NCBI GenBank assembly: GCA_004195635.1 | Contig: PSPT01000016.1 | Coordinates: 1-37,343 of the forward strand | DNA: 37,343 nt | Origin: Methanobacteriota archaeon | GTDB lineage: Archaea > Thermoplasmatota > Poseidoniia > Poseidoniales > Poseidoniaceae | Direction: 5' to 3' | Shown: piece by piece, positions 6,620 to 33,991 of the stretch | Layout: every line of letters begins with the position of its first letter | How positions within the stretch are numbered: the first letter of the stretch is position 1 | Translations under genes and position numbers: made by a program | Notes under the pieces: model-generated | The model's database searches: none | The model's input: the letters and a program-made list of their open reading frames with translations, nothing else | Told to the model about the DNA's origin: nothing

Positions 6620-6914
6620 GTTAGGACGCCCCCACTTGCAGCACTTAGGCTATACGGTTCGACTTTTCTCGTCAACGATGTAAACGGCACACTGCATCCA
6701 TCAACAACCGTTTAGTTTATTGGCCGTTTGGGCCGACCTCAAACTCGCGTCCGCTATGGAACTGCTTGAACCCCCACTTTTAGGGTGGATTTGAGCACCC
6801 CGCAGAGCTAAATAAAAAAGTCCAATATCGAGCACAATAGAACAGTTAAATAAGTGTCGGCAATAATATGGAAAAATGAAGAAGAATGATGCAATAATGA
6901 GGAAGGTGAATAGA
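6620..6914. promoter_or_regulatory. Divergent promoter region between dut and nrdBA
   Basis: No protein gene is seen in these 295 bases. On the plus strand TTAAATA at 6846-6852 is a good TATA-box candidate; initiation about 25 bases later would fall near 6875 and give a leader of roughly 40 bases before the preferred nrdB start at 6915. A further AT-rich segment, CTAAATAAAAAA (about 6808-6819), precedes it, and a short CCAC/GTGG hairpin lies near 6774-6788. For dut, AT-rich sequence near 6705-6720 on the minus strand is too far for a sure promoter call. Confidence 0.45.
6901..6909 (+). promoter_or_regulatory. Ribosome binding site choosing the nrdB start
   Basis: GGAAGGTGA contains AGGTGA, an exact match to the archaeal anti-Shine-Dalgarno, five bases before ATG 6915. 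The earlier in-frame ATG at 6876 has no such site, though it would fall close to the predicted transcription start and could be used leaderless. Confidence 0.6.
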
Positions 6915-7976: not shown

Positions 7977-8020
7977 ACCTTACGCGCAGCGAAAGGCTTA
8001 CGCACGATACAATATACGAC

Positions 8021-8026
8021 GGAGGT
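8021..8026 (+). promoter_or_regulatory. Ribosome binding site for the TTG start of nrdA
   Basis: GGAGGT lies seven bases before TTG 8034, an ideal spacing, and there is no in-frame ATG near the conserved N terminus. This makes TTG the likely initiator of nrdA. Confidence 0.75.
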
Positions 8027-8033
8027 TGTTATT

Positions 8034-11895: not shown

Positions 11896-11899
11896 ATTT

Positions 11900-11907
11900 C
11901 CCCCTCC
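11900..11907 (-). promoter_or_regulatory. Ribosome binding site for the TTG start of lpdA
   Basis: Read on the minus strand, GGAGGGGG ends four bases before TTG 11895 and lies five bases after the E2 stop codon. It decides between this start and the longer frame opening at 11982. Confidence 0.75.
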
Positions 11908-11912
11908 AAATT

Positions 11913-13214: not shown

Positions 13215-13216
13215 GT

Positions 13217-14230
13217 TTATTCCTCCTGTGTTCGCTTAATTGCATCGGCAATTCTCTGTGGACTTGGCAAGTAATCCCATTCAGTTGAATGGGGGAAGGG
13301 AGTATCCCATCCGGTTACTCTTTCGATTGGTGCTTCTAGATTATAGAAGCATCTCTCTTGAATAGAAGCAGACATTTCAGCACCAAAGCCGCTTGTCTTT
13401 GGTGCTTCATGGACAATCACGCAGCGACCCGTTTTCTTTACCGAATTGACCACGGCATCACGGTCCCAAGGAATTAATGTTTGGAGGTCAATCAATTCAC
13501 AATTTACACCTGAGTCTGTAATTCCTTGCTCGGCAATATGAACCATTGCTCCCCAAGCAATAACGGTACAAGCATCTCCTTTCATTACAATGTCGGCTTG
13601 CTCAAGAGGAATTGTATAGTGCTCATCAGGAACTTCACCCTTAGGGTGGTCTTTCCATGTTGGGACATGGTGGGGGTCACCATAAAATGGGCCTCGGTAG
13701 CAACGCTTTGGTTCAAAGAAAACTACTGGATCATTACTTTCAATAGCGCTTGCAAGTAGCCCTTTTGCATTGTATGGATTGGAACAATATACTACTTTTA
13801 TTCCAGGTGTGTGAGTGAACTGAGCTTCTGGAGATTGACTGTGATGATGGCCACCTTTGATTCCGCCACCTGCGGGCGCTCGAATTGTAACAGGGCAAGA
13901 AAACTCACCGCCGCTACGATGCCTTAGTTTGGCAATTTCGTTTACTATTTGATCATAGGCAGGGAAAATATAGTCTGCAAATTGAATTTCCATAACTGGC
14001 CGAAGCCCATTTAATCCCATTCCCATGGCTACTGCCGCAATTCCACCCTCAGCCAATGGTGCATCAAAAACTCGATGCGCCCCATGTTTTTCTTGGAGCC
14101 CATCAGTAACTCGGAATACTCCTCCGAAATATCCAACGTCAACCCCGAATATCAATACATCATTATCCTTTTGAAGTTGTAAGTCAAGGGCATTGTTTAG
14201 TGCTGCTATCATGTTCATTTTTGTCATCAT
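13217..14230 (-). CDS. 2-oxoacid dehydrogenase E1 component, beta subunit (branched-chain type)
   Basis: About 337 residues. Forms the alpha2beta2 thiamine diphosphate enzyme with the preceding gene; oxidative decarboxylation of a 2-oxoacid and acyl transfer to lipoyl-E2. The segments G-G-V-F-R-V-T-D-G-L, F-D-A-P-L-A-E-G-G-I, E-I-Q-F-A-D-Y-I-F-P-A and G-G-G-I-K-G-G-H-H-H-S-Q-S-P-E-A resemble the beta subunit of branched-chain dehydrogenases more than pyruvate dehydrogenase. The frame is open from GTG 14236, but that codon lies inside the ribosome binding site GAGGTGATT; ATG 14230 or 14227 is the real start. Stop is two bases from the E2 start. Substrate range cannot be proven from sequence. 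Confidence 0.94.
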   Translation of the reverse strand: MMTKMNMIAALNNALDLQLQKDNDVLIFGVDVGYFGGVFRVTDGLQEKHGAHRVFDAPLAEGGIAAVAMGMGLNGLRPVMEIQFADYIFPAYDQIVNEIAKLRHRSGGEFSCPVTIRAPAGGGIKGGHHHSQSPEAQFTHTPGIKVVYCSNPYNAKGLLASAIESNDPVVFFEPKRCYRGPFYGDPHHVPTWKDHPKGEVPDEHYTIPLEQADIVMKGDACTVIAWGAMVHIAEQGITDSGVNCELIDLQTLIPWDRDAVVNSVKKTGRCVIVHEAPKTSGFGAEMSASIQERCFYNLEAPIERVTGWDTPFPHSTEWDYLPSPQRIADAIKRTQEE

Positions 14231-14237
14231 AATCACC

Positions 14238-15479
14238 TCACTTACCTAATTCCTCGCGTTGTTCTTGAATATGCCAAGGGATTTCGTCATACACTTCCTC
14301 AAAAATAGTTGATGCTGGCGGGAAAGGTCCATTCGCCAAATCTCCATATGTGACTGCTTCTTTGTAAGCTGCCATGACTTCAGCATCAATACGTTCTTCC
14401 ATTGCAACCTGCTCTTCTTCACTCCAAGCGCCAGTTTGGATTAAATGATCCTTTAGGCGCTCAATTGGGTCGCCGCCAGGCCAGAATTCCTGTTCATCAC
14501 TAGGTCGGTAACGACTAGGGTCATCACTGCTACTATGTGCTCCTGCGCGATACGTGTAAACTTCAATATGAGTGGCGCCAGCACCGCTGGCGGCTCGGTC
14601 ACGAGCCCATTTTGTAACAGCATAGAGAGCGAGAAAATCATTTCCATCAACACGGATTGAAGGCAAACCGTAGCCCAATCCACGTGCAGCGAAAGTCTGC
14701 GCTCCACTTGCAATGTTTTGATGCGTTGAGATGGCCCATTGATTATTTACCACATTGAGAATAACAGGTGGCTTAAACACACTAGCAAAATTGAGTGCGT
14801 AGTGATAATCACCCTGAGCAGTTGTTCCTTCTCCTAGCCAAGAAATTGTCACTTGGTCATCACCCTTGTATGCACTCGCCATAGCAACACCAACTGCCTG
14901 ACTAAACTGAGTCCCAACTGGGCTTGAAATAGAGATGAAGTGTCCTTCTCTATAGGAATAGTGAACCGGCATCTGACGGCCACCTATATTGTCCTTTGAG
15001 TTGCCAATACAATGACAAATCATGCTGACCATATCTCTCCCACGAACAAATTGTGCGCCTGGTTGTCGATATGAGGGGAAAAGCCAATCCTTTTCCTCGA
15101 GAGCCATAGTTTGGGCGATTGCGACTGCTTCTTCACCGAGTGAACGCATATAGAAAGAAAGTTTGCCAGTTCTCTGCATCTTCATCATTCTATCGTCAAA
15201 AATACGCAAGCGCGCCATGTATTCCAAACCAGCTTTGAGGGTTTCAGCATCCAATTTGGGATCCCATTCACCACTCGCGGTATTATCGTAATTTAGCACA
15301 CGCACAAGACCAACTGCATGCTCCTTTGTTGCAGAGAAATCACAGGTCACAGGGTCCGGACGAGGAAGGTCTTCAGGCAGATGAGTCCACTCTCCGCCGA
15401 AGTCGGCTTGATCACCCGGACGAAACGGGGGAGTTGGTACTGCGCAGGGGCTGGTTACGTCACTATCCTTCTCGCTCAT
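14238..15479 (-). CDS. 2-oxoacid dehydrogenase E1 component, alpha subunit (branched-chain type)
   Basis: 413 residues. Carries the thiamine diphosphate motif from G-E-G (216-218) to N-N-Q-W (245-248), the A-G-A-H-S-S-S-D-D-P-S-R-Y phospho-loop-like segment near 317-329, and M-R-S-L-G-E-E-A around 111-118. The long N-terminal lead of about 55 residues with P-x-P-P-F-R-P-G resembles that of branched-chain E1alpha. GAGGTGA lies just before ATG 15479, and the gene begins 25 bases after the lipA stop, so both are in one transcript. With E1beta it should oxidise valine, leucine and isoleucine-derived 2-oxoacids, and possibly pyruvate. Confidence 0.94.
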   Translation of the reverse strand: MSEKDSDVTSPCAVPTPPFRPGDQADFGGEWTHLPEDLPRPDPVTCDFSATKEHAVGLVRVLNYDNTASGEWDPKLDAETLKAGLEYMARLRIFDDRMMKMQRTGKLSFYMRSLGEEAVAIAQTMALEEKDWLFPSYRQPGAQFVRGRDMVSMICHCIGNSKDNIGGRQMPVHYSYREGHFISISSPVGTQFSQAVGVAMASAYKGDDQVTISWLGEGTTAQGDYHYALNFASVFKPPVILNVVNNQWAISTHQNIASGAQTFAARGLGYGLPSIRVDGNDFLALYAVTKWARDRAASGAGATHIEVYTYRAGAHSSSDDPSRYRPSDEQEFWPGGDPIERLKDHLIQTGAWSEEEQVAMEERIDAEVMAAYKEAVTYGDLANGPFPPASTIFEEVYDEIPWHIQEQREELGK

Positions 15480-15504
15480 ATTTTCACCTCATCTTCTGTA
15501 GTTT

Positions 15505-16533
15505 CTAAGCATTGTCGCGCTTTTTCACAGCGTTAATATTCCTTGCCTTGGCTAATAACTGCCCCGCTTTGTACGAAGAACGCACCAGTGGGCCGCTGGC
15601 AACGCCAAGGAAGCCAATTTTATTAGCGACATTTTCCCATTTGCTGAATTGTTCGGGAGTGGGGAAGCGGTCAATAGGAAAATGCTTTCTTGATGGAGCC
15701 AAATATTGACCAATAGTGATTAGTTCAACACCGGCATCATATAGCATTTGCATTGCCTCATTGACCTCCTCATCGGTCTCACCGAGACCAACCATTATTG
15801 AGGATTTTGTCAGAATATCGGGACGAAGAATTTTCGCTTGACGTAGAATTGCAAGAGATTGGGAAAAACTAGCCCGATTATCTCTCACAAGTTTGTCAAG
15901 ACGCGGGACGCATTCAACATTGTGAGCGAATACATCGAGGTACAAATCGCTGAGAAGATGGGCGAGAGCAGTGTGGTCACCGGCAAGGTCAGAACACAGA
16001 AGTTCGAGAGTAACATCTGGTGATTTTTCATGAATGGCAATGAGGCATTGCTTGTAATGGCCGGCACCTGAATCCTCTAAGTCATCACGATTTACCACCG
16101 TAATAACTGCATGACGCAACATCATTAGACCAACTGCATCACTTAATTCCGCAGGTTCATTTTGATCCAAGGGCAAGGGAGTTTTGATTGTGCCAACTGC
16201 ACAGAAACGACAACTACGAGTGCATTCCTGTCCGGCAATCATGAATGTTGCATCCCCCGAACTCCAGCATTCATGGATGTTAGGGCAGCGCGCTTCTTGG
16301 CAAACCGTATTCAGGGCATGCTCCTTGACAGTTTCACTGGTTTTATTGAATCTTGCGAGAGTTTCCCCACTTGGTAAACGGGTACGAAACCACTCAGGGA
16401 GGCGCTTTCTCTCTTGACTTGTGCGGCTAGAAGCAAGAGACGGGTGAGTTGCAATAGACGAAGATTCCTGAGCGGAATTTGGCGGAGTGTTTGATGAAGT
16501 TTTCTCAATCATCGGCAACCGTTGACCTGTCAT
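15505..16533 (-). CDS. lipA: Lipoyl synthase LipA (radical SAM)
   Basis: 342 residues from ATG 16533. Inserts two sulfur atoms into the octanoyl chain on the lipoyl domain. Both iron-sulfur clusters are supported: auxiliary Cys78, Cys83 and Cys89 (C-x4-C-x5-C) and radical-SAM Cys104, Cys108 and Cys111 (C-x3-C-x2-C in C-T-R-S-C-R-F-C). V-N-R-D-D-L follows, and R-S-S-Y near residue 318 gives the serine ligand of the auxiliary cluster. The frame is open to 16614, but GGGGGAG five bases before ATG 16533 favours that start; the first 40 or so residues are Ser/Thr-rich and not conserved. First gene of the operon with E1alpha, E1beta, E2 and E3. Confidence 0.94.
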   Translation of the reverse strand: MTGQRLPMIEKTSSNTPPNSAQESSSIATHPSLASSRTSQERKRLPEWFRTRLPSGETLARFNKTSETVKEHALNTVCQEARCPNIHECWSSGDATFMIAGQECTRSCRFCAVGTIKTPLPLDQNEPAELSDAVGLMMLRHAVITVVNRDDLEDSGAGHYKQCLIAIHEKSPDVTLELLCSDLAGDHTALAHLLSDLYLDVFAHNVECVPRLDKLVRDNRASFSQSLAILRQAKILRPDILTKSSIMVGLGETDEEVNEAMQMLYDAGVELITIGQYLAPSRKHFPIDRFPTPEQFSKWENVANKIGFLGVASGPLVRSSYKAGQLLAKARNINAVKKRDNA

Positions 16534-16537
16534 ACAA

Positions 16538-16555
16538 ACTCCCCCTTCGGGGGAG
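16538..16555 (-). promoter_or_regulatory. Hairpin covering the lipA ribosome binding site
   Basis: On the minus strand CTCCCCC, GAA and GGGGGAG form a perfect seven-base stem with a tight loop, and the right arm is itself the ribosome binding site of lipA. If it folds in the mRNA it would reduce translation of lipA, and through coupling perhaps the operon. Confidence 0.5.
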
Positions 16556-16670
16556 GCGACGAGTGGGGGTTTCATGAAGGTTGGCAACTTCACAAACTGT
16601 GCACAAAAAGGCAAATTTGACTTCTTTCGCCCTTTGGATTGAAAAAGATGAACTAAGTGAGGGAATGTAG

Positions 16671-19182: not shown

Positions 19183-22077
19183 ATGTCGCAACACAGCAGC
19201 AATTTCAAAAGAATTACTCTGTCGGTAATGCTCATCACATTGATGTTGCTAAGTACAATGCCAGTATCAAATGACACCATATTGGAAAGTTATCCACCAT
19301 CTTCTTCAGCAAGTGAGGCAGATATGGTAGACTACGAGTTGTATGTCTCTGGACCTAATTCATCGGCAGGTGGCGACGGATTCATCACAACAGAGCGCCC
19401 GGACACCGGTGGCCAAGAAGATGCAAGTGCAATAGAAGGCATTGAATTCCGAAGCGGCGAAATGATTTCCGACATGCTAGTTAAGGGCACTAGTGTTTCT
19501 GGTAATGAAATTTGGATCTATTACTTCCTGCAATTTGTCGGCCAAGAAGGTAGTACTGCAGATGTAACTTTTGCATTAGAAGCAGGTGGAACTCAAATTG
19601 CTTCTAAGACAGTTAGTATTGACGATCCTTGCCAAAGTGGTGGTTTGGGACAAAGTTGTGCTTACCATGGAAGAGATATTGTATTTGACACAATTCCTGT
19701 TGATGGATTCACCGTTGGATCTGGAAAACAACTTGTATTGACAATCGATGGTTCGGCTACATGTGAAGGCGGTAGTGGTGGATTCCCAGGTAGTAATGAC
19801 TGTGATGTTCGCGTTGCATTTGATAATGTAGACAATGCAGATGGTTTCACCCGTATTGAAGTTCGTGCTAATGCAATGGCAAATAGCCAAGTTAGAATTC
19901 ATCGACCAGGTGGCTCATGGAATGATGCAGAAGTAGTAGAATGGGCACCAAACCACTTCCCCGAGTTCCGCGAAATGCAATTCAGCATTGATGTGCGTAA
20001 TTCCTTTGGCCGTTACGACATACAACAAGTGAAACTAGTAATGGAAAGCCCAGGAGGCACCTCATATCCCTTTGAGAAAATATTCTCCGACAATGAATTA
20101 AAACTAGACAATGACGGCCTCGTCGGCAACTTTTCATGGACCTATAACGCAGGAATAGTAAGTGGAGATTATGGACTTACTCTTGAGATTACTGACCTTC
20201 AAGGACATCTTGTCATTGTTGATCACGCAGGCATTGAGATGGTAGATGTTAGCATTTATCTCGACATGGGCCCCGACCAATCCGACTCAATTCTTGTCGC
20301 CCCCGGGATGACTTCAACTGCTGAATTTAGACTTGACCACGTTGGTTCAAATGGAATTGGCATGCAGGTTGAAATGTCACCACAACGTAGTTTTGGAGAT
20401 GATTGGGTTGTTGAGTTTGACCAACCCGCAGGATACGAATTAACAGGAGGGGGGGCTTTTGCCAGACCAATTCTTTCAATTACCGCACCTGAAGATGACC
20501 TTAGCAATGCGCCTGATGTAATCGATATCATCGCCCGGGCATATGCAGATGAAGATGGAGATGGCACCGAAGAAGAAGTTCAAGTCATTACAATTTCCCT
20601 TGATATTGAAGAAGTTGGAATCTTTGCTTACCCACGCATAAACATCTATGAGGATGAAGACCACCAAATGGAAATTGCAGATAGTGCTCGCCCAGAGGCA
20701 TATGATGAAGGCGTTTCTCACTTTGTTGATTCAGACCTAACTGGAAGGTTTTGGTTAGACTTGCAAAATGCGGGCTTTGACCAAGATACTTTCCGAATAA
20801 AAGTCAAGGATATTCCTGACCAATGGGATGTTAGTTTCTTTGACAACCTAACAAATTCGGAATTGGAAAAACAACAGGGTGCTTGGGTTACCCCTTCACT
20901 TGGCAGCCACAGTGTTGAAACTTTCATGCTGGAAGTATATCCACCTGCTGGAAGAGATGGAGAGGATTTGGGGATTTTGGAAATTGAGGTTACATCAAGT
21001 GGAGACAGTGAATTGCAATCTACCGTCCGCTTCACCCTGCACCGAACTTTTGGTGTTTATGCTGAAGTAATTTATGACCCATTTGGCGCACCTGATGGCC
21101 ACATTGGTCCCTTTGAAACAACTTGTGAAAGTATTAGCACATCATGCCAACTGGATCTGACTGTACGTATCACTGCTCAAGATGGAAATGGAAGTGCAGA
21201 AGTTTCTTCTTGGCAAATCCGCGACCCAGCATCCCTTGAGAAAAACTTAGAAGTTGAAAATGGGGCCTATTCTCGCTGGGAATGGGGAATTACTTTTTCT
21301 GGAAATGGTTCTATTGCAAACAGAGTTTCCTTAGGCCAAGGCACAAGTTCAGATATTAATTTACAGGTGTCATATACCCGAGGGTTGAAGGCAGGTAACC
21401 ATACAATGTATCTACGTATTATTGAGGAAGGTGCTGGAGCAGATGCCCGCTACTTTGACCTTCCTTTGACTTTTGAAATCGAAGTAGATATGCCTGATGA
21501 CATTCAGATTACCCAAAAAAGCGAACCTGCCGCATTCTATGCCGGAGATTCTCGTGAAATGTCTTTCAAAGTTTACAATGGAAACAATGTTGATTTGACC
21601 CTCCTCTTTGATGTTGATATTGAAGGTGACTGGGGCGCTGATATCAAAGGCAACCAAGTCCTTTCTGTACCAGCATTTAGTGAGGCTAATTTTTCACTCC
21701 TTATCCTAGCACCTGATGCACTTCGTCACGGCGATGTTTCAATGTTAACAATTGCCGCTAGGCCTCTTGATTCTGAGATTTCTTATGATGATGAATTTAC
21801 CGTTAGAAAGAAGATTAATTTGCAGGGTGAAGCGACTGGAATAGACCGTATTATGGGCGAGATTACCCAGCCGCGTGTACCGACAATTATTGCTTTTGTC
21901 GCCCTTGTATTCCTTGCAGGAATGGCCTTTAACCGACGCAATAAGGATGTTGAAATTATTGAAGAATGGATTGATGATGATGATGAATTATTTGATGATG
22001 TAAAGTCAGATTTACCTGAACCAATATTAGTGGATGATGATCTCGAATTGTTAGATGAAGATTTAGAAGACCTCTGA
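19183..22077 (+). CDS. Large secreted surface protein with C-terminal membrane anchor and acidic tail
   Basis: 964 residues from ATG 19183, with GGTGG five bases upstream; the frame is also open from GTG 19165. N terminus: Lys/Arg then a hydrophobic stretch (I-T-L-S-V-M-L-I-T-L-M-L-L) typical of a Sec signal peptide, followed by a Ser/Pro/Glu-rich region. The body is beta-rich with many Asp and Gly residues, several NEW3/CARDB-like segments, e.g. near 790-880 (F-Y-A-G-D-S-R-E-M-S-F-K-V-Y-N-G-N-N), and scattered N-x-S/T sites. One membrane helix near 899-917 (I-I-A-F-V-A-L-V-F-L-A-G-M-A-F) is followed by Arg residues and an acidic tail of about 45 residues. No catalytic motif is seen. It precedes the giant transglutaminase-like gene by about 120 bp, and the two probably act together at the cell surface. 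Confidence 0.83.
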   Translation: MSQHSSNFKRITLSVMLITLMLLSTMPVSNDTILESYPPSSSASEADMVDYELYVSGPNSSAGGDGFITTERPDTGGQEDASAIEGIEFRSGEMISDMLVKGTSVSGNEIWIYYFLQFVGQEGSTADVTFALEAGGTQIASKTVSIDDPCQSGGLGQSCAYHGRDIVFDTIPVDGFTVGSGKQLVLTIDGSATCEGGSGGFPGSNDCDVRVAFDNVDNADGFTRIEVRANAMANSQVRIHRPGGSWNDAEVVEWAPNHFPEFREMQFSIDVRNSFGRYDIQQVKLVMESPGGTSYPFEKIFSDNELKLDNDGLVGNFSWTYNAGIVSGDYGLTLEITDLQGHLVIVDHAGIEMVDVSIYLDMGPDQSDSILVAPGMTSTAEFRLDHVGSNGIGMQVEMSPQRSFGDDWVVEFDQPAGYELTGGGAFARPILSITAPEDDLSNAPDVIDIIARAYADEDGDGTEEEVQVITISLDIEEVGIFAYPRINIYEDEDHQMEIADSARPEAYDEGVSHFVDSDLTGRFWLDLQNAGFDQDTFRIKVKDIPDQWDVSFFDNLTNSELEKQQGAWVTPSLGSHSVETFMLEVYPPAGRDGEDLGILEIEVTSSGDSELQSTVRFTLHRTFGVYAEVIYDPFGAPDGHIGPFETTCESISTSCQLDLTVRITAQDGNGSAEVSSWQIRDPASLEKNLEVENGAYSRWEWGITFSGNGSIANRVSLGQGTSSDINLQVSYTRGLKAGNHTMYLRIIEEGAGADARYFDLPLTFEIEVDMPDDIQITQKSEPAAFYAGDSREMSFKVYNGNNVDLTLLFDVDIEGDWGADIKGNQVLSVPAFSEANFSLLILAPDALRHGDVSMLTIAARPLDSEISYDDEFTVRKKINLQGEATGIDRIMGEITQPRVPTIIAFVALVFLAGMAFNRRNKDVEIIEEWIDDDDELFDDVKSDLPEPILVDDDLELLDEDLEDL

Positions 22078-22197: not shown

Positions 22198-25100
22198 ATG
22201 ATAAGCCGCCCCGATTCTGTTTCCAAAATCATTCCTTTGCGCTTTCAAAGACACCGTGCATTGGGCCTTGTTTCCTTGATGATATTATCATCCTTAGCTG
22301 GAATTGAGTTCGCGTCATGGGAAGCCATTGCAATTAGTGATGCAGATGGAGATGGGCTTTCATACGGCCTTGAGTACTTGATTAACACTCAGCCTCAAAA
22401 TCCAGATAGCGATGGTGATGGGCTCCCCGATGGTTGGGAATGGATGTATGGATTGAACCCAAATGATGGATCTTCCATCGGCGGAGATGGAGCCACCGGC
22501 GACCCAGATGGCGATGGTATGACCAATTTGCAAGAATACAACTATTTGCAGCCCAATAATTGGGATATTGCTTCAACTAGCCAAGTACTTGACAATGGAG
22601 TTTGGTGGAATGGTACCGTGCCAGTACGAAACTGGAATGAAGAAAATGCAATGCAATATAGTCGGCCTGCATGTGGTGATCCAGGGACAGATGGAACTGG
22701 AAGCATTATTTTGTGTGACGAGGACCCAGTTGGAAATATTTGTACCGACGGAATTGATAATGACCGAGATGGCCAAGTTGATTCTAATGATAACGATTAT
22801 GATGGAGATGCTGACTGTTCAAGCGACGATGATGACGGCGATGGTATTGATGATGAGGATGTAGATGGCTGGGATACCGATGGCGATGGATTACCTGATG
22901 GTTGGGAAGCAGCGAATGGACTCAATGCAACATCACCTTCCAATAATGACGGATATTATGGCGACCCCGATGGAGATGGGCTAATCAATATTTATGAATA
23001 TATTAATCCTAGTTGGACCACCCAATGTTCCGGTGTTGATTGTTGGCGCCCTGGGCCAAGTACTGCGGCGATGACTGAAACAGTATCTCCTTGTGATCCA
23101 GTCAGGGGCATAGGACCAAATGGTTGTGCAACCATGACTGCGGAAGTTGATGGAATAATGAGCACTGACCCGCAAAACCCAGATACTGATGGCGATGGAT
23201 TAAATGACAGTTATGAAGCACTTACCCTCCTAACCGACCCCACCTCTAGAGATACCGATGGTGATGGTGTAGATGATGGAGTTGAGGTTTCAGGATCCTA
23301 CGGAAACCCACCTCAAGCAAGCGACCCTCGGAATAACAATACTGACGGTGATGCTTTTACAGATGGTGAAGAAGATATCAATGGAAATGGAGTCATTGAC
23401 GTCAATGAAACCGACCCAACACGCCGAGAAGATTCCGACGACTTTGATAATGACGGTATTCAAAACTGGGCAGAAAACATGAGTTGCACTCTTTGGAATG
23501 TTGCAGACACCGATGGTGGGGGAGTAAACGATGGGGATGAACGAAATACGACTCACAACACCGACCCATGCGATTCAATGATAAATTGGATTGAGACAAA
23601 TTTTACCTTCAACGGCGGCACATCCCGTTTGACTGTTGGAAATGGAAGTGGTTTTAACCCAGCAGGGGGAGTCGGATATTACAATGATTCTTCCGGAGCA
23701 CTTACCTCCTTTGCCTATTCTACGGTAGTGAATAATGTGATTTATGGAGTTAGCAACGGGCCAGCAGCAGGCACCGTCTCCGTAGAACATTCAAGTAACT
23801 CATGGTGCCATACCTCTGCTGTTGCTGATGGTTCAATTTTTACTTGGCGCGATTTCTGTGACGATGATTATGAAGATACTGATGGCGATGGTTTAGCAGA
23901 TTGGCAGGAACTTCTCGGCACATTTGGCTTCTTTTCAAATCCGTTTTTGGTCGATAGCGATTTAGATGGTGTAAGCGATTATGATGAAGTAATGAATAAT
24001 ACAGACCCCACTGAGCCATGTTGGAATAATCTCGATAGCGATGGTGATGGAATAAATGATTACTTTGAAACTTCAACTGGTTGTGATTTAGTATTCATCG
24101 GAATATTAAATGGTTCAACTGATGGATTCACAACGAATCCGCAAGCATTTGATACTGACCAAGGTGGAATCGATGACCGTCAAGAATACTTTGATGGCAC
24201 AAATCCCGAAGCAGACCCAACTGATGATCTCCACCTTATGGATACAGACGGAGATGGAATCCCAGATGAGGTTGAGAACAATACGGGCACTGATTGGAGA
24301 AATCCAGACACAGATGGTGGAGGCGTAATTGATGGTGTTGAATGCCCTCGGCCATTTTGGTTTACAAATTGTGTTGGCTCCCCAACCGATCCGCTTGACC
24401 CTACAGATGACATTACTGAAAACCAAGTTGTTTTCTGGGCTAACAATACAACTGGGCAAATAGACCTTGGTCAACCTCATTATTGGCGCCTTATTACTGG
24501 TGACAATTATACTGGCTCGGCTTACGCATCTTTACCTGCGGCTCATAGCTCAAATGAAATTTTCGTGCCTTACGCTGACTTAGTTCACTTGCCAGATTCT
24601 TCCTTTGCCAATGATTCAGTAACTTGGCAAGTCAATTTTAACAATGGAGTATTGACTGGTGCTTTCCCGATGCCCGCTCTTTCAAGTAACATCACATTCT
24701 GGTTTGACTCTGTAGTTCAAGTTTCCCGAACAAATGAGACCCACTCCTACGAAGTTATTGCTGGAGTTCTGTCAGAATATTGGTCTGTTCAATCTGAATA
24801 TTGGTATGACACCACTGCTCAAGCGAATGCTTTAGTAAATTCGAGCTCCATATACGAACTCGATTTACCTGATTACTTTACAGACATGACGACCCCTGAA
24901 TCCGAAGTATACAATATTACAAATGGTGTGATTACCGATTCAGGTGCAACAACCCCTTGGGAAAAGGCATCTGCACTTGCTGATTACCTAATCAACGGAA
25001 ATGCAACTACCGAATTCAAAATAAATTTCAATGGTTCACAAGTTCCAGATGGCGTAGATATTTCACAACATATGCTCATTCTAACTCAGGAAGGAACTTG

Positions 25101-28100
25101 TTCTGAATTCACTACTCTATACACTACAATGGCTCGGCTTGCAGGACTTCCTACTCGCAAAGTTTCTGGATACAAGGATGGTTTCTGGCAGGAAACTGGC
25201 TTTGAAATATGGAGTCAGCACTTCACCCACTGGGCTGAAGTTAACTTTGTTTCAACCCCAGGAACTGGTAGTCTTGACATGGGATGGGTTCCTTTCGAGG
25301 CCTGTCCACCTGCTGCTACAATGGAAGTTGTCAACCTAACTGCATCTCCGTTGACTTGGGATCGTGATGGTTCGTCTCAATTCAATGTCACCGGACAACT
25401 TCGCTTTGTGGATAATCAAACCATTGCTATTGGTGAAACAATTGAGGCTTTCTTGCAGCCATATGCATCTGCATCTGCACCAACTTGGGAAAATAGTTTT
25501 GGTGCCGCTTCGACCGATGCAAATGGTACGTTCACAATTACAGGAATCCCTTCTGAGGCCATGCTTCCCGGATTTGGTGTGCTTGTGTTTAGGCCTTTTG
25601 AAAACGGCTATGTAGCCGAATCCGCTATTGTTACAGCGGCAATTGTCAATGTGACAGATGATGTAAATATTTCTCACTTACTTCCCGCCGTGGTCAATAA
25701 CCCCGTGGTTGGAGCCGGTGCTACGACCACAGTAAATGGCCTAATAATGTTTGAAAATGTTCCAGAAAATGGTGTTGGCACTTTAGCCAACTTGACCATG
25801 TACCTTGAATATTCTAGTTCTATCCAAGGAACGGTAAATCTTTCGACCCAGATCTCTCCTGAAGGTTTTTGGTCCTTTGACCTCTCACTAGATTCAACTG
25901 AACCTCTTGGCAACCTTTCCTCATCAATTTGGTTCCCTGGATGGACGGACACGAGTATGGTAGTTGCAGGAAGCCCTGCTTACAACCTGCGCCCACTTGC
26001 CTTCCCACTAATGCTTAATGTTTCAGAGGCACCGAATTTGTCTGCTACACTTGAAGGGCCAGGCGCTAATAATAGCATAATTATCGTTGATGATTTATTC
26101 TATATCAATGGCTCAGCAATTAGCCGAGGACCTTCACCTGTGCCAATGGAAGGAATGCTTGAATTTTCAATCCGTCAAAATGGGACTGGTGGATTATATA
26201 ATGTAGTTCTAAATCAAAGTGTAAACGGCACCTTCAGTGTTTCGGCAAATATGTCTGCCCTTTTGGCAGTAATTCCGGCTGGATTAATGGATGTTCGCTT
26301 GCGTTTCTACCCAACTCTGCTTGAGGCCACAGATGATGCAAATATGTCTGGGTCTGCTTGGTGGCTAAAGGGATTCATACGTATTGAGTTCCAATCTAAT
26401 CCGGCTATGCGCGGCGGTCAAACATCAGTAATCCTTGACTTCTATGACCACCGTGATTCTAACATTGACCTCAACCTCACCGGAGATTTCTCTTCGAGTT
26501 TCAATGGTACTTGGTTCAACACTAGTACCAACCCTGCAGGCACTTTGAATTTGATTTGGAATACATCAGCAAGTCTTGCTGCTGGCGATTATCCATTTGA
26601 AACAATATTCAATGGTAGCGAGTATTTCGCACCGGTAACCAATTCAACGTTGATTCGTATTCAAGCAGATGTCAGTATCACTGCTGGACCCGGTGTTGAT
26701 TGGGTTCATATTGGAGATATTGGTTGGATAAATGGAAGTTTCGTCGATGCCCAACTCTTAACACCCGTCCTCAACAACAATAGCGGAATAACCGTGATAA
26801 TTCTCCATCCAACAGATGGGCCATACGAGGTTGGCAGTACCCTCCTCAACACTTCCACAGGCAACTTTAGTGTAAATTTCACCATGCCAAATATCGCAGC
26901 AGGAGTCTATACTGTAGAATTATTTGTTGATTTCCAGAATGGTGCACCCCCTGGTGGGCCCTTTTACAATTATATTGGCGAGTTCCTTCCAAGTACTCAA
27001 ATTGGTGTTGAATCGGAAGCAATTCTATCTATTGCAGATGTACCTCCGCGACTACAAATCAATGATACGGCAGATTTGATTATTCATGTCGTTGATGGTG
27101 CTGACAATTCAAATGTTTCGGGAGCGGTTATCAATTATGTCTTCGACTTTGGAAATACCAATACCAGTATTGGACAAGCAACCTCTGATCCTGACGGAAA
27201 TGCAACTCTAACTTGGCTTGCAACTGGATTTGACCCCGGAAGTTATGTCGTCCGATTCTGGATGGCGAACGACACCACTGATAGCATTTCTACCCCCGAT
27301 GCTGCACGTTACTTAGGTAATGAAACAAGTATGACGATGATTCTACAAGCACCGACTATTGTTAATATTCTCAGTATCCCTACCAATATCACTGCTGGAA
27401 TGGCATTCAATGTTTCCGGCGTAATCATGGATAATGATAATTTAAGCCGCCCACTTTCTGAAGCGGTAAATATTGACATCTATTGGGCAGATAACCCTGA
27501 GGAGAAGTTAATCAATAACCGTCCTACCACGCCTAATGGAACTTTCTCTTTCTCCGTACCGACGGACTCTAGTGGGAATGGCACAACACGGGGAAACCAC
27601 GACTTAATTATTGAAGTTGTCAACAATAGTAGCCCTTACTACATGACTGCCAATACCTCTCATTCAATGTTGATTTTCGGAGTAACTGACTTTGAGGGAA
27701 TGCAACCGCTAAATGCAGTAATCGTTAACCGTGGCGACTCTACGAATATTTCGACTATTCTCGTTGAATCTTCAGACCAATTCACCGCCCTTGACAACTT
27801 TACCGTGGCCATGAAGTTTGATGAAACTTGGATGTCTGCAGAGGAGATGACCGATGGAAATGGAAGAGTCACTTTCAACTATTCAATTCCATTTGATCAA
27901 CCGCTTGGCTTAATTAACGCAACATTCTTCTTCAACGGTAGTGTTGACCTCTTGAGTAAAAATAAGTCCTTAACCAGTATTACAGTTCGTTCACTTACCT
28001 TCATGGTAGTTGACCCAATTACTGCAAACCCAGTTGCTGGGACTTCATTCAATGTTAGTGGAAGTATCCAAAGCGATAATGGAACTGCACTGATGTCGAG

Positions 28101-31059
28101 AGATGGAACTCCGCTCATTGCAAATGTTCTTTTCAAGATTAATGACCAACTCGGCAACTTTGTGGTTGCTAACGGAACCATACTGGCCAATGGGAATTGG
28201 ACTGCAATGATTACTCTGAATTCTGATTTCGCAGCAGGCAGCAATAATCTCAGCGCTTCATATGTACCCACAGTAAACTTCTATCAAGGTTCAGAAGCAA
28301 ATACTACCTTTGATAGCAGAGGATATTCCACTCTCTCTTTCATCTTCCCTGCTCTTGATCAATTTGGCAATCCTTCCTTGAATTCAAGAACAAATCGCGG
28401 TGATTCAATAGATGTCTATGTTCTTCTTGTTGACAATACGCTGGCGCCAATAGATAATGCAACCATCAACCTCACATTTGACGGTCTCGCCACTCCGGTT
28501 AGTGGAACAACTTGGGCAAATGGCTCAGCATTGATTAGCCTATTAATTCCAGCAAATGCCACACCGGGTTTCCTTGATATCTCAGTAACATTTGATGGGA
28601 CGCCTGGCACAACTGGAATACTCGGTTCAAGTCAAAATACTACAATGGTGGTCATAGCAAATACAACTACCAACATTACCACTATTACTGAATCAACCGT
28701 GGTTGGTGACACTATTTCTATCAACGGAACACTCCTCGATGACCTTGGAATGCCACTTGTGTATGAAGGCGAACCTGCATCAGGAATAATGCACCTATTG
28801 GTTGACGGAGTTGAAGTAATGTCAACTATGAGCAATGCAACTACTGGCCAATGGACATTCACCTACCAAGTCCCACTTGCAAGCGGTGCGGGAGTACATA
28901 ATGTGCAAGTAACCTACAATTCTGACTCGGTTTGGGGCAATCCTGGTTCAGTAGACGCAGACCAAATGAATCCACCGTTTTACCAACCTAGTGAAAGCAA
29001 TGGAATGTTCAATGTAAGTGTACCAACAGAGGTGCGCTTGGCTATCGCCGGAGGAGAGGTTGACCGCGAGGATATGCTTGTGGTAAACGGAAGTTTGGTG
29101 GATATTGTCGGCCTACCTTTGGATAATCGAACAATTGAAGTTTGGCTTGGAGGGGTATTATTGACTAATGTTACTACTGACGCTAATGGGGCTTTCTCTG
29201 TTATTTATCCAGTTCCCGCAGATTCCATGCTGGGCCCAAATACTCTTGTGTTTGAATTTAGAGGTGCTACTTGGTGGTTACCGAGCAATACTTCTGGAAC
29301 TTGGAATATTTATTCCCAGACCGGACTAACAGTTTCAACTCAGGCAACCGCTGCTATCGGCGATGTTGTAGCGATTAATGGCACTGTCACTGACAATCAA
29401 TTGATTCCGGTTTCGAACCATCTAGTTGAGATTTATGTTGATGGTATTCTAATCGGCCAAGTTATTAGTGACGAGAGCGGTATGTATTCTCTTGATTGGT
29501 CTATTCAATCAAGCTTTGACTTTGGTGAGCATACGATTTTCGCTACCGCTGCTCAACAAGGTTGGTATCGCGAAGGACAAGCAAATACAACAATTTGGAT
29601 AGCCCACCGCACTGGATTAATCATCAACTTCGTTGATACACCGGATGCTACACGTGGAGAACTTTGGCAATTGACTGGGCAATTATATGATGATGATTCG
29701 CCAAGCGATGAAGGGATTTCAGGCCAATTATTGACAATATTCTATGATGGAGATGAAGTCGGAACAGCCTTAACTACTGGCGGAGGAAGTTGGGAGTACA
29801 CCATCCAAGTACCAATGGATGCAAGCCGTGGAGAACACTCTTTTACTGTTGAATTTGAAGGCGACACCGCATATCTTGGCAGTAGCGGAGAAATTACCGG
29901 ACGGGCATGGGCAAATGTTGTCTTTGAAATTGATGTTATTTCACCTCAGGCAACAAGATCCTCTAATGCTGACTTAATCACCATGAGTGGACGCTTGCGC
30001 GAAGTCGGTGGAAATCAGGAATTGTTAAACAATGTAACACTATACCTAGGCGAAGGAACTCAGTGTGAATCTAATTCGGAAGTGCGATGTATTTTCATCT
30101 CAACTGCAAACTGGAATAACGGTGGATTCACATTGGCAGCAACTGCGCCCATTTGGATGGAAGGAGGAATAAACTGGATCACCCTACAATATTTGGGAGA
30201 TAGTAATGAATATTTCAACGGAGTTAGCTCAAACAATAGTGTGGCAATTGTGATCGATGCAACCTTTGACCTTTCAATGGAAACGATTGTAGTTGGTGAT
30301 TCTGAAAAAGAAAATGTGAGAGGACTCCTAATAATTACTGCCGATGATACAAATGCACCTCTTCCGGGAATTCGTGTGTGGGTTGAGTTGATTGTTCCTA
30401 ATGGCAGTGATAGACTCGAAGAAAAGACATCAGACGACCTCGGTGCAGTTCTAATTGCCTTTGATTCCGACCCTGCCTATGCTGATATTGATCAATGGGG
30501 CAGGGTACAATTACACATCTATTCAGATGACAATGTTCTTTCAGAATCATCTCGCGCTCAATTGGAAGCACTATATGCGGGAGAGGAATTAGATTACAAT
30601 CTCGGTGCAAGTGAAGAATCAACTTCAATTTGGACTTGGATCTTCCTTATGCTTGTTGCTGCCGCAATTGCCGGTGGAGTCATTTATGCCCGCAAGAGGA
30701 AGATGGATGCACTCAGTGAAATTGATGACGTATTTACCTATACTGCAGAATTACTCGCCGCAGGAGATGCAATACGCGAGGCGATTTTCCAATGTTATGA
30801 GGGATTGTGCCAAGTATTACAGAGTCATGGATTCTTGCGTCACGATTTCGAGACAGTGAGGGAATTCGAAATTGCCATTCGTTCAGCAGTGCCAATCCGC
30901 GAGGATGCCCTACTTGCACTTGACCAAGTCTTTGAGGTTGCTCGATATAGCCGCAGAGAAATGGGAGAGGCACACAAGGTTCAAGCGCAACAGGCTCTAC
31001 AAGCCTGTCAATCAGAAGTTGAGCGAATCAGCAATATGCAAGAGATTCCAAACCGCTGA
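22198..31059 (+). CDS. Giant cell-surface protein: TSP3-like repeats, transglutaminase-like domain, Ig-like stalk, TM, DUF4129-like tail
   Basis: 2953 residues from ATG 22198 (TTG 22189 is also in frame). Signal peptide near 13-40; about residues 47-740 are calcium-binding D-x-D-x-D-G repeats of thrombospondin type 3 kind (many D-T-D-G-D-G-L-P-D-G copies). A transglutaminase-like domain lies at about 890-1050 with the triad Cys968 (G-T-C-S-E-F), His1011 (T-H-W-A-E-V) and Asp1027 (D-M-G-W), spaced as in active members. About 1055-2800 is a series of Ig-like/Big-type beta domains of about 100 residues, very rich in N-x-S/T sites. One membrane helix lies at about 2809-2830. The cytoplasmic tail (about 2831-2953) matches the DUF4129 pattern seen with TgpA-type transglutaminases (C-Y-E-G-L ... 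T-V-R-E-F ... V-F-E-V-A-R-Y-S). Exact substrates (crosslinking or peptide cleavage) are unknown. Confidence 0.92.
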   Translation: MISRPDSVSKIIPLRFQRHRALGLVSLMILSSLAGIEFASWEAIAISDADGDGLSYGLEYLINTQPQNPDSDGDGLPDGWEWMYGLNPNDGSSIGGDGATGDPDGDGMTNLQEYNYLQPNNWDIASTSQVLDNGVWWNGTVPVRNWNEENAMQYSRPACGDPGTDGTGSIILCDEDPVGNICTDGIDNDRDGQVDSNDNDYDGDADCSSDDDDGDGIDDEDVDGWDTDGDGLPDGWEAANGLNATSPSNNDGYYGDPDGDGLINIYEYINPSWTTQCSGVDCWRPGPSTAAMTETVSPCDPVRGIGPNGCATMTAEVDGIMSTDPQNPDTDGDGLNDSYEALTLLTDPTSRDTDGDGVDDGVEVSGSYGNPPQASDPRNNNTDGDAFTDGEEDINGNGVIDVNETDPTRREDSDDFDNDGIQNWAENMSCTLWNVADTDGGGVNDGDERNTTHNTDPCDSMINWIETNFTFNGGTSRLTVGNGSGFNPAGGVGYYNDSSGALTSFAYSTVVNNVIYGVSNGPAAGTVSVEHSSNSWCHTSAVADGSIFTWRDFCDDDYEDTDGDGLADWQELLGTFGFFSNPFLVDSDLDGVSDYDEVMNNTDPTEPCWNNLDSDGDGINDYFETSTGCDLVFIGILNGSTDGFTTNPQAFDTDQGGIDDRQEYFDGTNPEADPTDDLHLMDTDGDGIPDEVENNTGTDWRNPDTDGGGVIDGVECPRPFWFTNCVGSPTDPLDPTDDITENQVVFWANNTTGQIDLGQPHYWRLITGDNYTGSAYASLPAAHSSNEIFVPYADLVHLPDSSFANDSVTWQVNFNNGVLTGAFPMPALSSNITFWFDSVVQVSRTNETHSYEVIAGVLSEYWSVQSEYWYDTTAQANALVNSSSIYELDLPDYFTDMTTPESEVYNITNGVITDSGATTPWEKASALADYLINGNATTEFKINFNGSQVPDGVDISQHMLILTQEGTCSEFTTLYTTMARLAGLPTRKVSGYKDGFWQETGFEIWSQHFTHWAEVNFVSTPGTGSLDMGWVPFEACPPAATMEVVNLTASPLTWDRDGSSQFNVTGQLRFVDNQTIAIGETIEAFLQPYASASAPTWENSFGAASTDANGTFTITGIPSEAMLPGFGVLVFRPFENGYVAESAIVTAAIVNVTDDVNISHLLPAVVNNPVVGAGATTTVNGLIMFENVPENGVGTLANLTMYLEYSSSIQGTVNLSTQISPEGFWSFDLSLDSTEPLGNLSSSIWFPGWTDTSMVVAGSPAYNLRPLAFPLMLNVSEAPNLSATLEGPGANNSIIIVDDLFYINGSAISRGPSPVPMEGMLEFSIRQNGTGGLYNVVLNQSVNGTFSVSANMSALLAVIPAGLMDVRLRFYPTLLEATDDANMSGSAWWLKGFIRIEFQSNPAMRGGQTSVILDFYDHRDSNIDLNLTGDFSSSFNGTWFNTSTNPAGTLNLIWNTSASLAAGDYPFETIFNGSEYFAPVTNSTLIRIQADVSITAGPGVDWVHIGDIGWINGSFVDAQLLTPVLNNNSGITVIILHPTDGPYEVGSTLLNTSTGNFSVNFTMPNIAAGVYTVELFVDFQNGAPPGGPFYNYIGEFLPSTQIGVESEAILSIADVPPRLQINDTADLIIHVVDGADNSNVSGAVINYVFDFGNTNTSIGQATSDPDGNATLTWLATGFDPGSYVVRFWMANDTTDSISTPDAARYLGNETSMTMILQAPTIVNILSIPTNITAGMAFNVSGVIMDNDNLSRPLSEAVNIDIYWADNPEEKLINNRPTTPNGTFSFSVPTDSSGNGTTRGNHDLIIEVVNNSSPYYMTANTSHSMLIFGVTDFEGMQPLNAVIVNRGDSTNISTILVESSDQFTALDNFTVAMKFDETWMSAEEMTDGNGRVTFNYSIPFDQPLGLINATFFFNGSVDLLSKNKSLTSITVRSLTFMVVDPITANPVAGTSFNVSGSIQSDNGTALMSRDGTPLIANVLFKINDQLGNFVVANGTILANGNWTAMITLNSDFAAGSNNLSASYVPTVNFYQGSEANTTFDSRGYSTLSFIFPALDQFGNPSLNSRTNRGDSIDVYVLLVDNTLAPIDNATINLTFDGLATPVSGTTWANGSALISLLIPANATPGFLDISVTFDGTPGTTGILGSSQNTTMVVIANTTTNITTITESTVVGDTISINGTLLDDLGMPLVYEGEPASGIMHLLVDGVEVMSTMSNATTGQWTFTYQVPLASGAGVHNVQVTYNSDSVWGNPGSVDADQMNPPFYQPSESNGMFNVSVPTEVRLAIAGGEVDREDMLVVNGSLVDIVGLPLDNRTIEVWLGGVLLTNVTTDANGAFSVIYPVPADSMLGPNTLVFEFRGATWWLPSNTSGTWNIYSQTGLTVSTQATAAIGDVVAINGTVTDNQLIPVSNHLVEIYVDGILIGQVISDESGMYSLDWSIQSSFDFGEHTIFATAAQQGWYREGQANTTIWIAHRTGLIINFVDTPDATRGELWQLTGQLYDDDSPSDEGISGQLLTIFYDGDEVGTALTTGGGSWEYTIQVPMDASRGEHSFTVEFEGDTAYLGSSGEITGRAWANVVFEIDVISPQATRSSNADLITMSGRLREVGGNQELLNNVTLYLGEGTQCESNSEVRCIFISTANWNNGGFTLAATAPIWMEGGINWITLQYLGDSNEYFNGVSSNNSVAIVIDATFDLSMETIVVGDSEKENVRGLLIITADDTNAPLPGIRVWVELIVPNGSDRLEEKTSDDLGAVLIAFDSDPAYADIDQWGRVQLHIYSDDNVLSESSRAQLEALYAGEELDYNLGASEESTSIWTWIFLMLVAAAIAGGVIYARKRKMDALSEIDDVFTYTAELLAAGDAIREAIFQCYEGLCQVLQSHGFLRHDFETVREFEIAIRSAVPIREDALLALDQVFEVARYSRREMGEAHKVQAQQALQACQSEVERISNMQEIPNR

Positions 31060-31799: not shown

Positions 31800-33896
31800 T
31801 CATTTGGAATTGTTAGAAGGAGTCTTGTCAAAGAATCGTTTGGCGATTGTCCCTGCAGTTTCGGGGCTATGAGTAATTATTGGTTGAATCCCAGATGGTA
31901 AGCAAGATTTGTATGGATTCCTATCGTGCCTATTATCGAGCAATAATATAAAGGCTCGGTCGCCGAAACTTCTTATTGGTCGACCAACGGCTTGCAGAAC
32001 TGAATTAATTGCCGGCTGAACTGCACCCCATTGAAATCCCTTGCCCTTGCCAAATTTATCCTGTAGATACTTTTGCAAGGCTTTGCTTTCAACCGAAGGT
32101 GGAGCCATCGGAATTCCGATGCAAACGGCGGCATCAAGGAGGTTATTGTGATAGTCAATTCCTTCTGCTAACTTCCCACCAAAAACACCACCAAGAAGCA
32201 CTCTGGTTCCGCGTTGCCTAGCTTCCTCCAAATCCTGTAGTAAGCGATCAGTTCGTTGCTTATTCCAATCTCGTTCTTCCAATAGTAAGCGAGTGCCTGG
32301 CCACTGACGCGAATCAAGAATTTCATTTAGCATGTAATACGAGGGCGCGAAAACCGCAACATGCCCGGGTGTAGCCTGCACTATTGCCTCAACATAGGAC
32401 TGGATTTTGGCAGTCATTGATGGACCTCTTTGAGCATATAGTGTGGTAGCATCACCGGTAATTGCAATAGGGCGGCGTTTGTCAAGGAAGGGGGAAGGAA
32501 GAGCAATCGTCCGGGTACTTTCGGAAGTCAGGCCGAGCATGTTAGCATACATTTCGGGAGGGTAGAGGGTACCGGACATGAGGAGAGAACCTGCTACTTT
32601 GTCAAAAACTGGCTTCGCAACAAGACTGGGGTCTAACAGATGGCTGACGAGAGTTCCATGAGTTCCACTGGTTTCAAAAACCAATGCCAATGCACTGCTT
32701 TCACCATAGCGAATAACTGCATCAAGTAATTCGGCAAGGCGGTGTGCTGCGAGGTCTCGAGGGTCATCATTATCCTGTTCAGCTTGAACTAATTTCAATA
32801 GATTACAGAGCGCGCCCATACGGTGTGCTTTTTCAGGTCCACGTATTTTTGTTGTTGCTTTACCAAGAGTAGTTTGTAGGGCTTCACTGGCAATTGCGTC
32901 AAATGCTTCGTTCAGAACGGCAAAAAATTCACTCATTGGAACTTCAACTTGCTTATTTTCACGACGCTTGGTGTCAGCCTTTTCGGCCTTTGAAAATAAT
33001 TCCCTAAACCACGAATTAAATGATTTGCGCAAACGACCCAATACATCCAGAGCCCAACGCAGATTATCCAACTCACCTGGCTCAAGTAAACCACTTCCAT
33101 TAAAGGCAACCATGGTCTCAAGATACTCTTCAAACTCATAACTAGCATTTCGTACCATTTCAGGAGTGATTCTTCGCTCCAGACCACCTCGGATGCGGTC
33201 TGGCAAATTATGGGCCTCGTCAACAATCACTATGATATTCTCAAGCCCAAGTCCCATGCCTGTGAGCGATGCTTCTCTAATATTGTCATGAAAAAGGTGG
33301 TTGTAATCAGCAACTACAATATCCACCTTAGAGGCATTTTCTCGGGCGGTTTTCCATGCACAAACAGGTGCTAGAAAGCCTTCATTATGATTTCCCTTAG
33401 CGTATTCAACTAATTCGTGGACATGCATGGGGTGCTTGAGTATGGCCGCTGTAACATTATCATTTTCTTCAATAAACGGCTTACATGTACGCTTGCTTCT
33501 CGCCTCGGAACACAGATTATTAAACAAAGCCGGGTGCTCAGCTGAAATGGGCAAAACGCACATTTTTTGTGTGCTGATCATGTCAACAAGAGTGACAGGG
33601 CTCTCACCATCACCAAGGCGGAGATTGATATCCTTAACAGTTTCAACAATGATTCTGTGCTGGCTTTGACGACCAGTTAGAAACATGATTGTTTTGCCCT
33701 CACCAACATTTTTGCCAATCTCTAAAGCGGCAGCTAAAGCGGCAGCGGTTTTGCCAATTCCAGTGGGTGCTGCAGCAATTAATGAACCACCTGAATTCAG
33801 TGCCACAAGGGCCTCTTCAATCATTTGATCTTGAAATGGACGCAGGGATTCGTGGGCCTGATATTTGAAGGATTTACCCTCGGCCACCTGCTTCAT
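31800..33896 (-). CDS. XPD/Rad3-like (DinG family) iron-sulfur helicase
   Basis: 698 residues from ATG 33896 (TTG 33905 is also in frame). Superfamily 2 5'-3' DNA helicase. Motif I A-P-T-G-I-G-K-T with Lys49, motif II D-E-A-H at 226-229, motif III-like M-S-G-T-L, motif V-VI regions G-G-K-L-A-E-G-I-D and Q-A-V-G-R-P-I-R. Between motifs Ia and II, Cys113, Cys129, Cys138 and Cys179 have the layout of the four 4Fe-4S ligands of XPD, so a cluster is likely. The enzyme is expected to unwind DNA in repair. No other repair gene is adjacent. It starts upstream of the RNA-like region and reads away from it. Confidence 0.94.
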   Translation of the reverse strand: MKQVAEGKSFKYQAHESLRPFQDQMIEEALVALNSGGSLIAAAPTGIGKTAAALAAALEIGKNVGEGKTIMFLTGRQSQHRIIVETVKDINLRLGDGESPVTLVDMISTQKMCVLPISAEHPALFNNLCSEARSKRTCKPFIEENDNVTAAILKHPMHVHELVEYAKGNHNEGFLAPVCAWKTARENASKVDIVVADYNHLFHDNIREASLTGMGLGLENIIVIVDEAHNLPDRIRGGLERRITPEMVRNASYEFEEYLETMVAFNGSGLLEPGELDNLRWALDVLGRLRKSFNSWFRELFSKAEKADTKRRENKQVEVPMSEFFAVLNEAFDAIASEALQTTLGKATTKIRGPEKAHRMGALCNLLKLVQAEQDNDDPRDLAAHRLAELLDAVIRYGESSALALVFETSGTHGTLVSHLLDPSLVAKPVFDKVAGSLLMSGTLYPPEMYANMLGLTSESTRTIALPSPFLDKRRPIAITGDATTLYAQRGPSMTAKIQSYVEAIVQATPGHVAVFAPSYYMLNEILDSRQWPGTRLLLEERDWNKQRTDRLLQDLEEARQRGTRVLLGGVFGGKLAEGIDYHNNLLDAAVCIGIPMAPPSVESKALQKYLQDKFGKGKGFQWGAVQPAINSVLQAVGRPIRSFGDRAFILLLDNRHDRNPYKSCLPSGIQPIITHSPETAGTIAKRFFDKTPSNNSK

Positions 33897-33991
33897 AGAT
33901 ACCAACCCATGACCGACCCCTCAAAAGCATTGACATTGTTACTTATGGTAAAATGGTAAAAAATATTCATCTCACCGTTTTGATTATAATA

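Follow-up and report, generated by a model that had tools for sequence, protein, structure and literature searches.

A giant surface protein of Poseidoniales with a TgpA-like transglutaminase module that lacks the catalytic histidine

Does a giant archaeal protein with a transglutaminase-like domain act as an enzyme at the cell surface, or has the domain been kept for something else? The question arises from a locus of the Poseidoniales, an order without cultured representatives that has been described as the most abundant archaeal group in surface seawater (PMC6461757). The stretch of DNA analyzed here, called the window throughout, comprises 37,343 nucleotides of a Poseidoniaceae genome (contig PSPT01000016.1 of assembly GCA_004195635.1) and encodes a chain of almost 3,000 residues that carries a transglutaminase-like domain and ends in a DUF4129 domain. 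An initial annotation, made from the sequence by itself, proposed a crosslinking or peptide-processing machine with a Cys-His-Asp triad in the correct order. We examined the architecture, the active-site residues, the relatives and the genomic neighborhood of this protein.

Architecture and neighborhood of the giant protein

The giant protein has 2,953 aa and is encoded by a single uninterrupted reading frame on the + strand, from the ATG at 22198 to the stop at 31059. Its full-length orthologues are 37-49% identical over about 3,000 residues, and because orthologues of the same size are found across genera, we could rule out chance or an assembly artefact as the origin of this frame. Only two hydrophobic segments in the whole chain rise above the hydropathy threshold, a signal-type segment at residues ~21-40 and a second one at ~2808-2831. 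The first forms the peak of the N terminus (residues 1-47, 22198..22338), which was delimited by hydropathy and alignment.

Behind it lies a region of calcium-type, TSP3-like DxDxDG repeats (residues 48-709, 22339..24324) that is kept in orthologues. We counted 19 such motifs in tandem within residues 1-740, compared with 1.0 in shuffled sequence, and none in later residues; the TSP3_bac model of Pfam matches six stretches with a summed score of 24.4 bits, just below its curated cut-off of 25. The repeats are predicted to bind Ca2+. They are followed by a beta domain with a conserved YWR-type motif (residues ~745-900, 24430..24897), delimited by an AlphaFold2 model, Foldseek and profile comparison, and by the transglutaminase-like core (residues 915-1035, 24940..25302), which Pfam identifies as Transglut_core (PF01841) with E=3.8e-12 and 46.9 bits against a cut-off of 23.

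The Ig-like stalk occupies residues 1062-2795 (25381..30582) and includes four stretches that match Big_3_5. It is rich in N-glycosylation sequons, with 73 in residues ~1062-2800 compared with 25.4 +/- 4.3 in shuffles and zero in the cytoplasmic tail, a distribution that fits an exported, N-glycosylated chain. The membrane helix predicted by hydropathy (residues 2812-2831, 30631..30690) is followed by a basic stretch, RKRK, and shortly afterwards, on the cytoplasmic side, by the DUF4129 domain (PF13559; residues 2866-2935, 30793..31002; E=4.7e-6, 27 bits against a cut-off of 24.8, profile positions 1-69 of 69). Within the whole chain, conservation is highest in residues 2851-2900, a block that overlaps this domain and averages 0.83 across 17 sequences; across 28 sequences, the block has many invariant columns. 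The giant chain, its place at the cell surface, the calcium-type repeats, the Ig-like stalk and the DUF4129-like tail had all been proposed in the initial annotation, and all of them are borne out.

The gene directly upstream (19183..22077, + strand, from the ATG at 19183 in the list of reading frames) encodes a 964-aa protein with a signal sequence, an all-beta Ig-like ectodomain, a C-terminal TM and an acidic cytoplasmic tail. In 27 of the 27 loci with room for it on the contig, it immediately precedes the giant gene in the same orientation; in L106, about 1.7 kb separates the two genes. Full-length copies are confined to the order, and elsewhere we found just short, fragmentary matches. In the last 45 residues there are 22 D/E and 2 K/R, and the endings are often of the type DDDIELV or DDDLELL. 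The model of this protein is a chain of beta domains with a mean pLDDT of 83 and a pTM of 0.48; many all-beta multi-domain proteins match it, with TM-scores of just 0.1-0.17, so we claim no specific structural relative. The earlier suggestion that this neighbor is a partner of the giant protein thus holds as far as conserved adjacency goes, and the two may also assemble together.

The remaining genes of the window include a 2-oxoacid dehydrogenase cluster (E1 alpha, E1 beta, E2 and E3) adjoining a lipoyl-synthase-like radical SAM gene (10453-16614), a lipoyl ligase-like gene (5436-6128), adjacent small and large subunits of ribonucleotide reductase (6876-10427) with a dUTPase-like gene nearby (6161-6619), and an XPD/DEAD_2-type helicase (31800-33905). 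Just downstream of the giant gene, many loci have an open reading frame of ~650-740 aa on the opposite strand. Its presence there would fit conservation of the XPD/DEAD_2-type helicase gene.

A TgpA-like module without the catalytic histidine

The transglutaminase-like domain is genuine both by sequence and by predicted fold. Among solved structures, the closest match to a profile built from 27 orthologues is TgpA of Pseudomonas aeruginosa (E=1.2e-9), with a second, weak stretch of similarity to TgpA in the region of the beta domain ahead of the core. The AlphaFold2 model of residues 735-1062 has a pLDDT of 88 and a pTM of 0.86, and Foldseek aligns it to the periplasmic domain of TgpA over ~300 columns (E=6.3e-13, TM-scores 0.58/0.65); a match of this length implies that the beta domain is TgpA-like as well. 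In two relatives from the same phylum (L148 and L160), Pfam matches TgpA_N in the corresponding region. Foldseek also returned a weak fold match of the module to the inactive animal transglutaminase EPB42 (7tvz_E).

In TgpA, the periplasmic domain is followed by a TM and then by a cytoplasmic C-terminal domain. The giant protein shares this plan with TgpA (PDB 6g49, 6g4h), having the beta domain and the core outside, then the TM, then the cytoplasmic domain. The initial annotation described the domain pair as rearranged, and this is not the case, since the beta domain, core, helix and DUF4129 stand in TgpA order. What differs is that a ~1,730-residue Ig-like stalk, which TgpA lacks, has been inserted between core and TM, and that calcium repeats stand in the place of the N-terminal membrane bundle, so the parts are colinear with those of TgpA. 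In TgpA itself, several TMs form an N-terminal bundle (DUF3488), the catalytic triad is conserved and activity has been measured (PMC3507681). The giant protein probably descends from a TgpA-type membrane transglutaminase.

Unlike TgpA, however, the giant protein lacks the catalytic His. In the conserved H-x-W-x-E motif this residue stands two positions before the Trp, and the profile alignment pairs DAHAWVE of TgpA with DLTTWAE of the giant protein, which places Thr1010 (25225..25227, + strand) in the catalytic His column. The register is also set by phylum relatives that have HAW in the same column. Across 159 distinct Poseidoniales domains, this column holds T72, A30, S29, R18, G4, N4, E1 and D1, and His in 0/159. 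No other column has a conserved His across the order, the best reaching 56/104. Two His residues of the window protein lie close by, His1011, which is off by one, and His1008, which is two residues too early; an active triad that uses either of them as a conserved feature is ruled out by the register and by the 159 domains. Misalignment can be rejected as the cause of the missing His because the relatives' HxW falls in the same column and because control transglutaminase-like proteins of ~530 aa from the same genomes, read directly, keep HAW or HGW. That these controls keep the motif indicates that the loss is specific to the module of the giant protein.

We observed the following in the smaller proteins. 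In five loci (L115, L095, L098, L101 and L102), transglutaminase-like proteins of ~530-560 aa carry a zinc-ribbon-like CxxC motif at the N terminus and probably contain a membrane segment, and HAW or HGW is intact in proteins of this type. Most matches of that size are from the family of the window.

The other catalytic positions are kept in part. Cys968 (25099..25101, + strand) is in the column of the catalytic Cys and is invariant in 159/159 domains, as are Trp1012 and Glu1014. The column of the catalytic Asp holds Glu1034 (25297..25299, + strand) in the window protein and D102/E46/Q5/N4/F1/K1 among the 159; Glu in this third position is also frequent in intact-looking relatives, so Glu1034 by itself is not decisive. 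A second Cys, Cys1036 (25303..25305, + strand), is likewise invariant in the 159 domains and is present in 104/104 of a sequence set assembled without selection on it, while our record scan of the best matches used a pattern that contains Cys1036 and is not independent evidence for it. These two are the only Cys residues in the module of the window protein. From their invariance, a Cys968-Cys1036 disulfide may have replaced or closed the old active site.

The triad described in the initial annotation is therefore not there: its His position is taken by Thr1010 and its Asp position by Glu1034. That the protein is an active transglutaminase, cross-linking or processing peptides at the surface, has become a very improbable reading. 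It would account for the score above the Pfam cut-off, the good TgpA-like model, the invariance of Cys968, Trp1012 and Glu1014, and the Asp or Glu found at the third position in 148/159, but it is at odds with a His column that is T/A/S/R/G/N/E/D in 159/159, with the lack of a substitute His column across the order, with a new invariant Cys beside the active-site strand, and with the H-x-W kept by the control proteins of the same genomes. With both the triad and the rearrangement gone, the crosslinking or peptide-processing interpretation is left unsupported, and we have strong confidence that the giant protein is not a conventional transglutaminase.

A non-canonical thiol enzyme is a different matter. 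In it, Glu1014, the acidic residue at 1034, or the D, H or N that fills column 1008 in 157/159 domains would assist Cys968 in place of the usual His. The catalytic His is known to have moved in some papain-like enzymes, which counts against our best explanation; in GP42 the His has moved, and Bacillus transglutaminase pairs Cys with Glu (PMC10318531). The invariance of Cys968 and Glu1014 would also agree with such an enzyme. Against it, most intact relatives also have D, H or N in column 1008, so that this is nothing new, Q/N/F/K occur in column 1034, and the equal invariance of Cys1036 is better fitted by a disulfide than by a free nucleophile. We consider this kind of enzyme unlikely.

Distribution and relatives in the phylum

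DUF4129 was detected in 239/244 genomes of the order, typically twice per genome, and where contigs are long enough the open frames are ~2,950-3,030 and ~2,600-2,800 aa. A profile of the transglutaminase module matched 228/244 genomes, with a single copy in most; three of the 16/244 genomes without a match are at least 90% complete. The best-matching records are mostly labelled Candidatus Poseidoniales / Poseidoniaceae or marine Euryarchaeota, including the MG-II chromosome CM001443, and one comes from a bin labelled Rhodobiaceae that is probably mis-binned. In the module tree, the Poseidoniales sequences form a single clade (support 100/99) with a long stem. Given this clade, and given that phylum relatives of the same plan keep HxW, one loss of the His at the base of the order is the simplest explanation. 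The tree of the DUF4129 tail was poorly resolved and was not used.

The shorter of the two frames is a second giant of ~2,650 aa, present in most Poseidoniales genomes. Like the first, it has calcium-type repeats, Ig-like domains, a TM and a DUF4129 tail; unlike the first, it lacks the transglutaminase domain and does not adjoin the 964-aa neighbor. Neither Pfam nor an iterated transglutaminase profile matched it, so we rejected the idea of a hidden module. In the loci L048-L062, the second giant appears as reading frames of 2,627-2,798 aa with DHDNDG-type repeats and Ig-like domains. The genome that hosts the window is 80% complete, and in it the longer giant is present and the shorter one was not seen.

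Outside the order, DUF4129 was detected in 98/194 genomes sampled across the phylum, and we read forty places among these matches. Giant DUF4129-tailed proteins of other lineages follow the same plan, with a transglutaminase domain and a DUF4129 tail in one chain. Three of them (L147, L148 and L160) keep both the Cys and the H-x-W, with Glu in third position, whereas the Poseidoniales protein keeps the Cys without the His. Six others (L145, L151, L162, L169, L170 and L178) are the opposite of the Poseidoniales protein, with the H-x-W and the Glu kept and Ser in place of Cys. All nine lack an equivalent of Cys1036. TSP3-type repeats were detected by Pfam in all four relatives that were scanned (L145, L147, L148 and L160), and a further group in the phylum has just a short Cys-containing remnant. 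The simplest history that we infer from these residues would be an active ancestor followed by separate losses of different catalytic residues. The Ser-His-Glu group could be inactive or could have a serine-based active site.

Searches of titles and abstracts pairing the order or the phylum with transglutaminase, and of titles for DUF4129 in archaea, with most subscription journals lying outside the search, returned no description of the giant protein and nothing on DUF4129 in archaea, respectively.

Proposed role at the cell surface

We favor a reading of the giant protein as a calcium- and glycan-rich, membrane-anchored and probably N-glycosylated surface fiber with a repurposed pseudo-transglutaminase, serving in adhesion or in the cell coat, and we put its probability at roughly 0.6; our confidence in what the protein does in place of catalysis is moderate. 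Ca2+ bound from seawater by the N-terminal repeats would make the outer tip stiff, while the transglutaminase module, its active site probably shut by the Cys968-Cys1036 disulfide, would form a folded head with a binding or structural function. This head would be held far from the membrane by the glycosylated stalk, and the Ig-like 964-aa neighbor would be co-expressed and assemble beside the giant protein. The DUF4129 tail would dock a cytosolic partner, with MoxR-DUF58 as a candidate, for assembly or anchoring. The outcome would be adhesion to particles or cells, or a component of the cell coat. The adhesion role is proposed by analogy, and it fits a published survey that linked the widespread thrombospondin genes of Poseidoniales to adhesion (PMC6461757). 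Retention of the transglutaminase fold for a non-catalytic role is known from EPB42 (protein 4.2), an inactive animal transglutaminase (PMC10318531), whose architecture and location are unrelated to those of the giant protein.

If the giant protein and its 964-aa neighbor instead formed the outer coat itself, as subunits of an S-layer-like lattice in which the transglutaminase remnant is just structural, one would expect the near-universal, mostly single-copy occurrence, the Ig-like, glycosylation-rich chain and the constant neighbor of Ig-like fold that we observe. However, a projecting fiber would explain a chain of ~3000 aa with its long stalk equally well, and most genomes have a second DUF4129 giant without the transglutaminase domain. 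We regard a lattice-forming subunit as a minority possibility.

The cytoplasmic side raises another option. Because conservation along the chain peaks in a block of the tail, a role as an inner docking or signalling module is plausible. Extended to the entire protein, this would give a transmembrane receptor, in which ligand binding at the pseudo-transglutaminase head would alter the DUF4129 tail and so send a signal inward; the conserved head without catalytic His would agree with such a receptor, and the acidic tail of the 964-aa neighbor could act together with the DUF4129 tail. Yet a single TM behind ~1,750 stalk residues would be a poor transmitter of conformational change, and the window has no linked signalling gene, so a receptor seems improbable. 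A search for relatives of the tail among solved structures gave nothing convincing.

That the tail docks to MoxR-DUF58 is a guess by analogy with bacteria, in which MoxR, DUF58 and transglutaminase genes are often neighbors (PMC6803598). Two DUF58 genes are present in each of the 21 genomes that we searched, among them the host. In the host they are on other contigs, where one adjoins a MoxR ATPase and both adjoin a DUF4350-type gene (L193, 3436-8642, and L192, 2096-6265, unlinked to the giant gene); the giant protein is the only DUF4129 match of that genome. We found neither MoxR nor DUF58 genes in the window, and neither is linked to the giant gene. The PFNA cluster of Bifidobacterium (fn3, MoxR ATPase, duf58, transglutaminase; PMC6803598) likewise combines MoxR and DUF58 with a membrane transglutaminase and a surface protein of FN3 type. 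It differs in consisting of separate genes of one operon with a polytopic transglutaminase, whereas the giant protein has transglutaminase domain and stalk in one chain, and in having MoxR-DUF58 linked.

A bolder version of our favored reading is that the ancestral surface enzyme became, a single time and at the root of the order, a disulfide-locked binding head. This head would sit on a glycosylated adhesin-receptor stiffened by calcium, with the DUF4129 tail coupled to MoxR-DUF58, giving an adhesion device that links outside to inside and is made from a dead transglutaminase; Cys would have been lost to Ser in parallel elsewhere in the phylum. Taken in full, this version is speculative and we hold it doubtful.

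For annotation, these results are a warning that giant proteins of this type should not be labelled as transglutaminases. The apparent loss of the His in one lineage, and of the Cys in others, within one conserved architecture offers a natural experiment on the conversion of an enzyme into a structural component. In this phylum, giant surface proteins recurrently end in DUF4129. How the surface of Poseidoniales contacts particles and cells is poorly known; as the core of this surface, a near-universal, mostly single-copy giant protein with a constant neighbor is a clear candidate.
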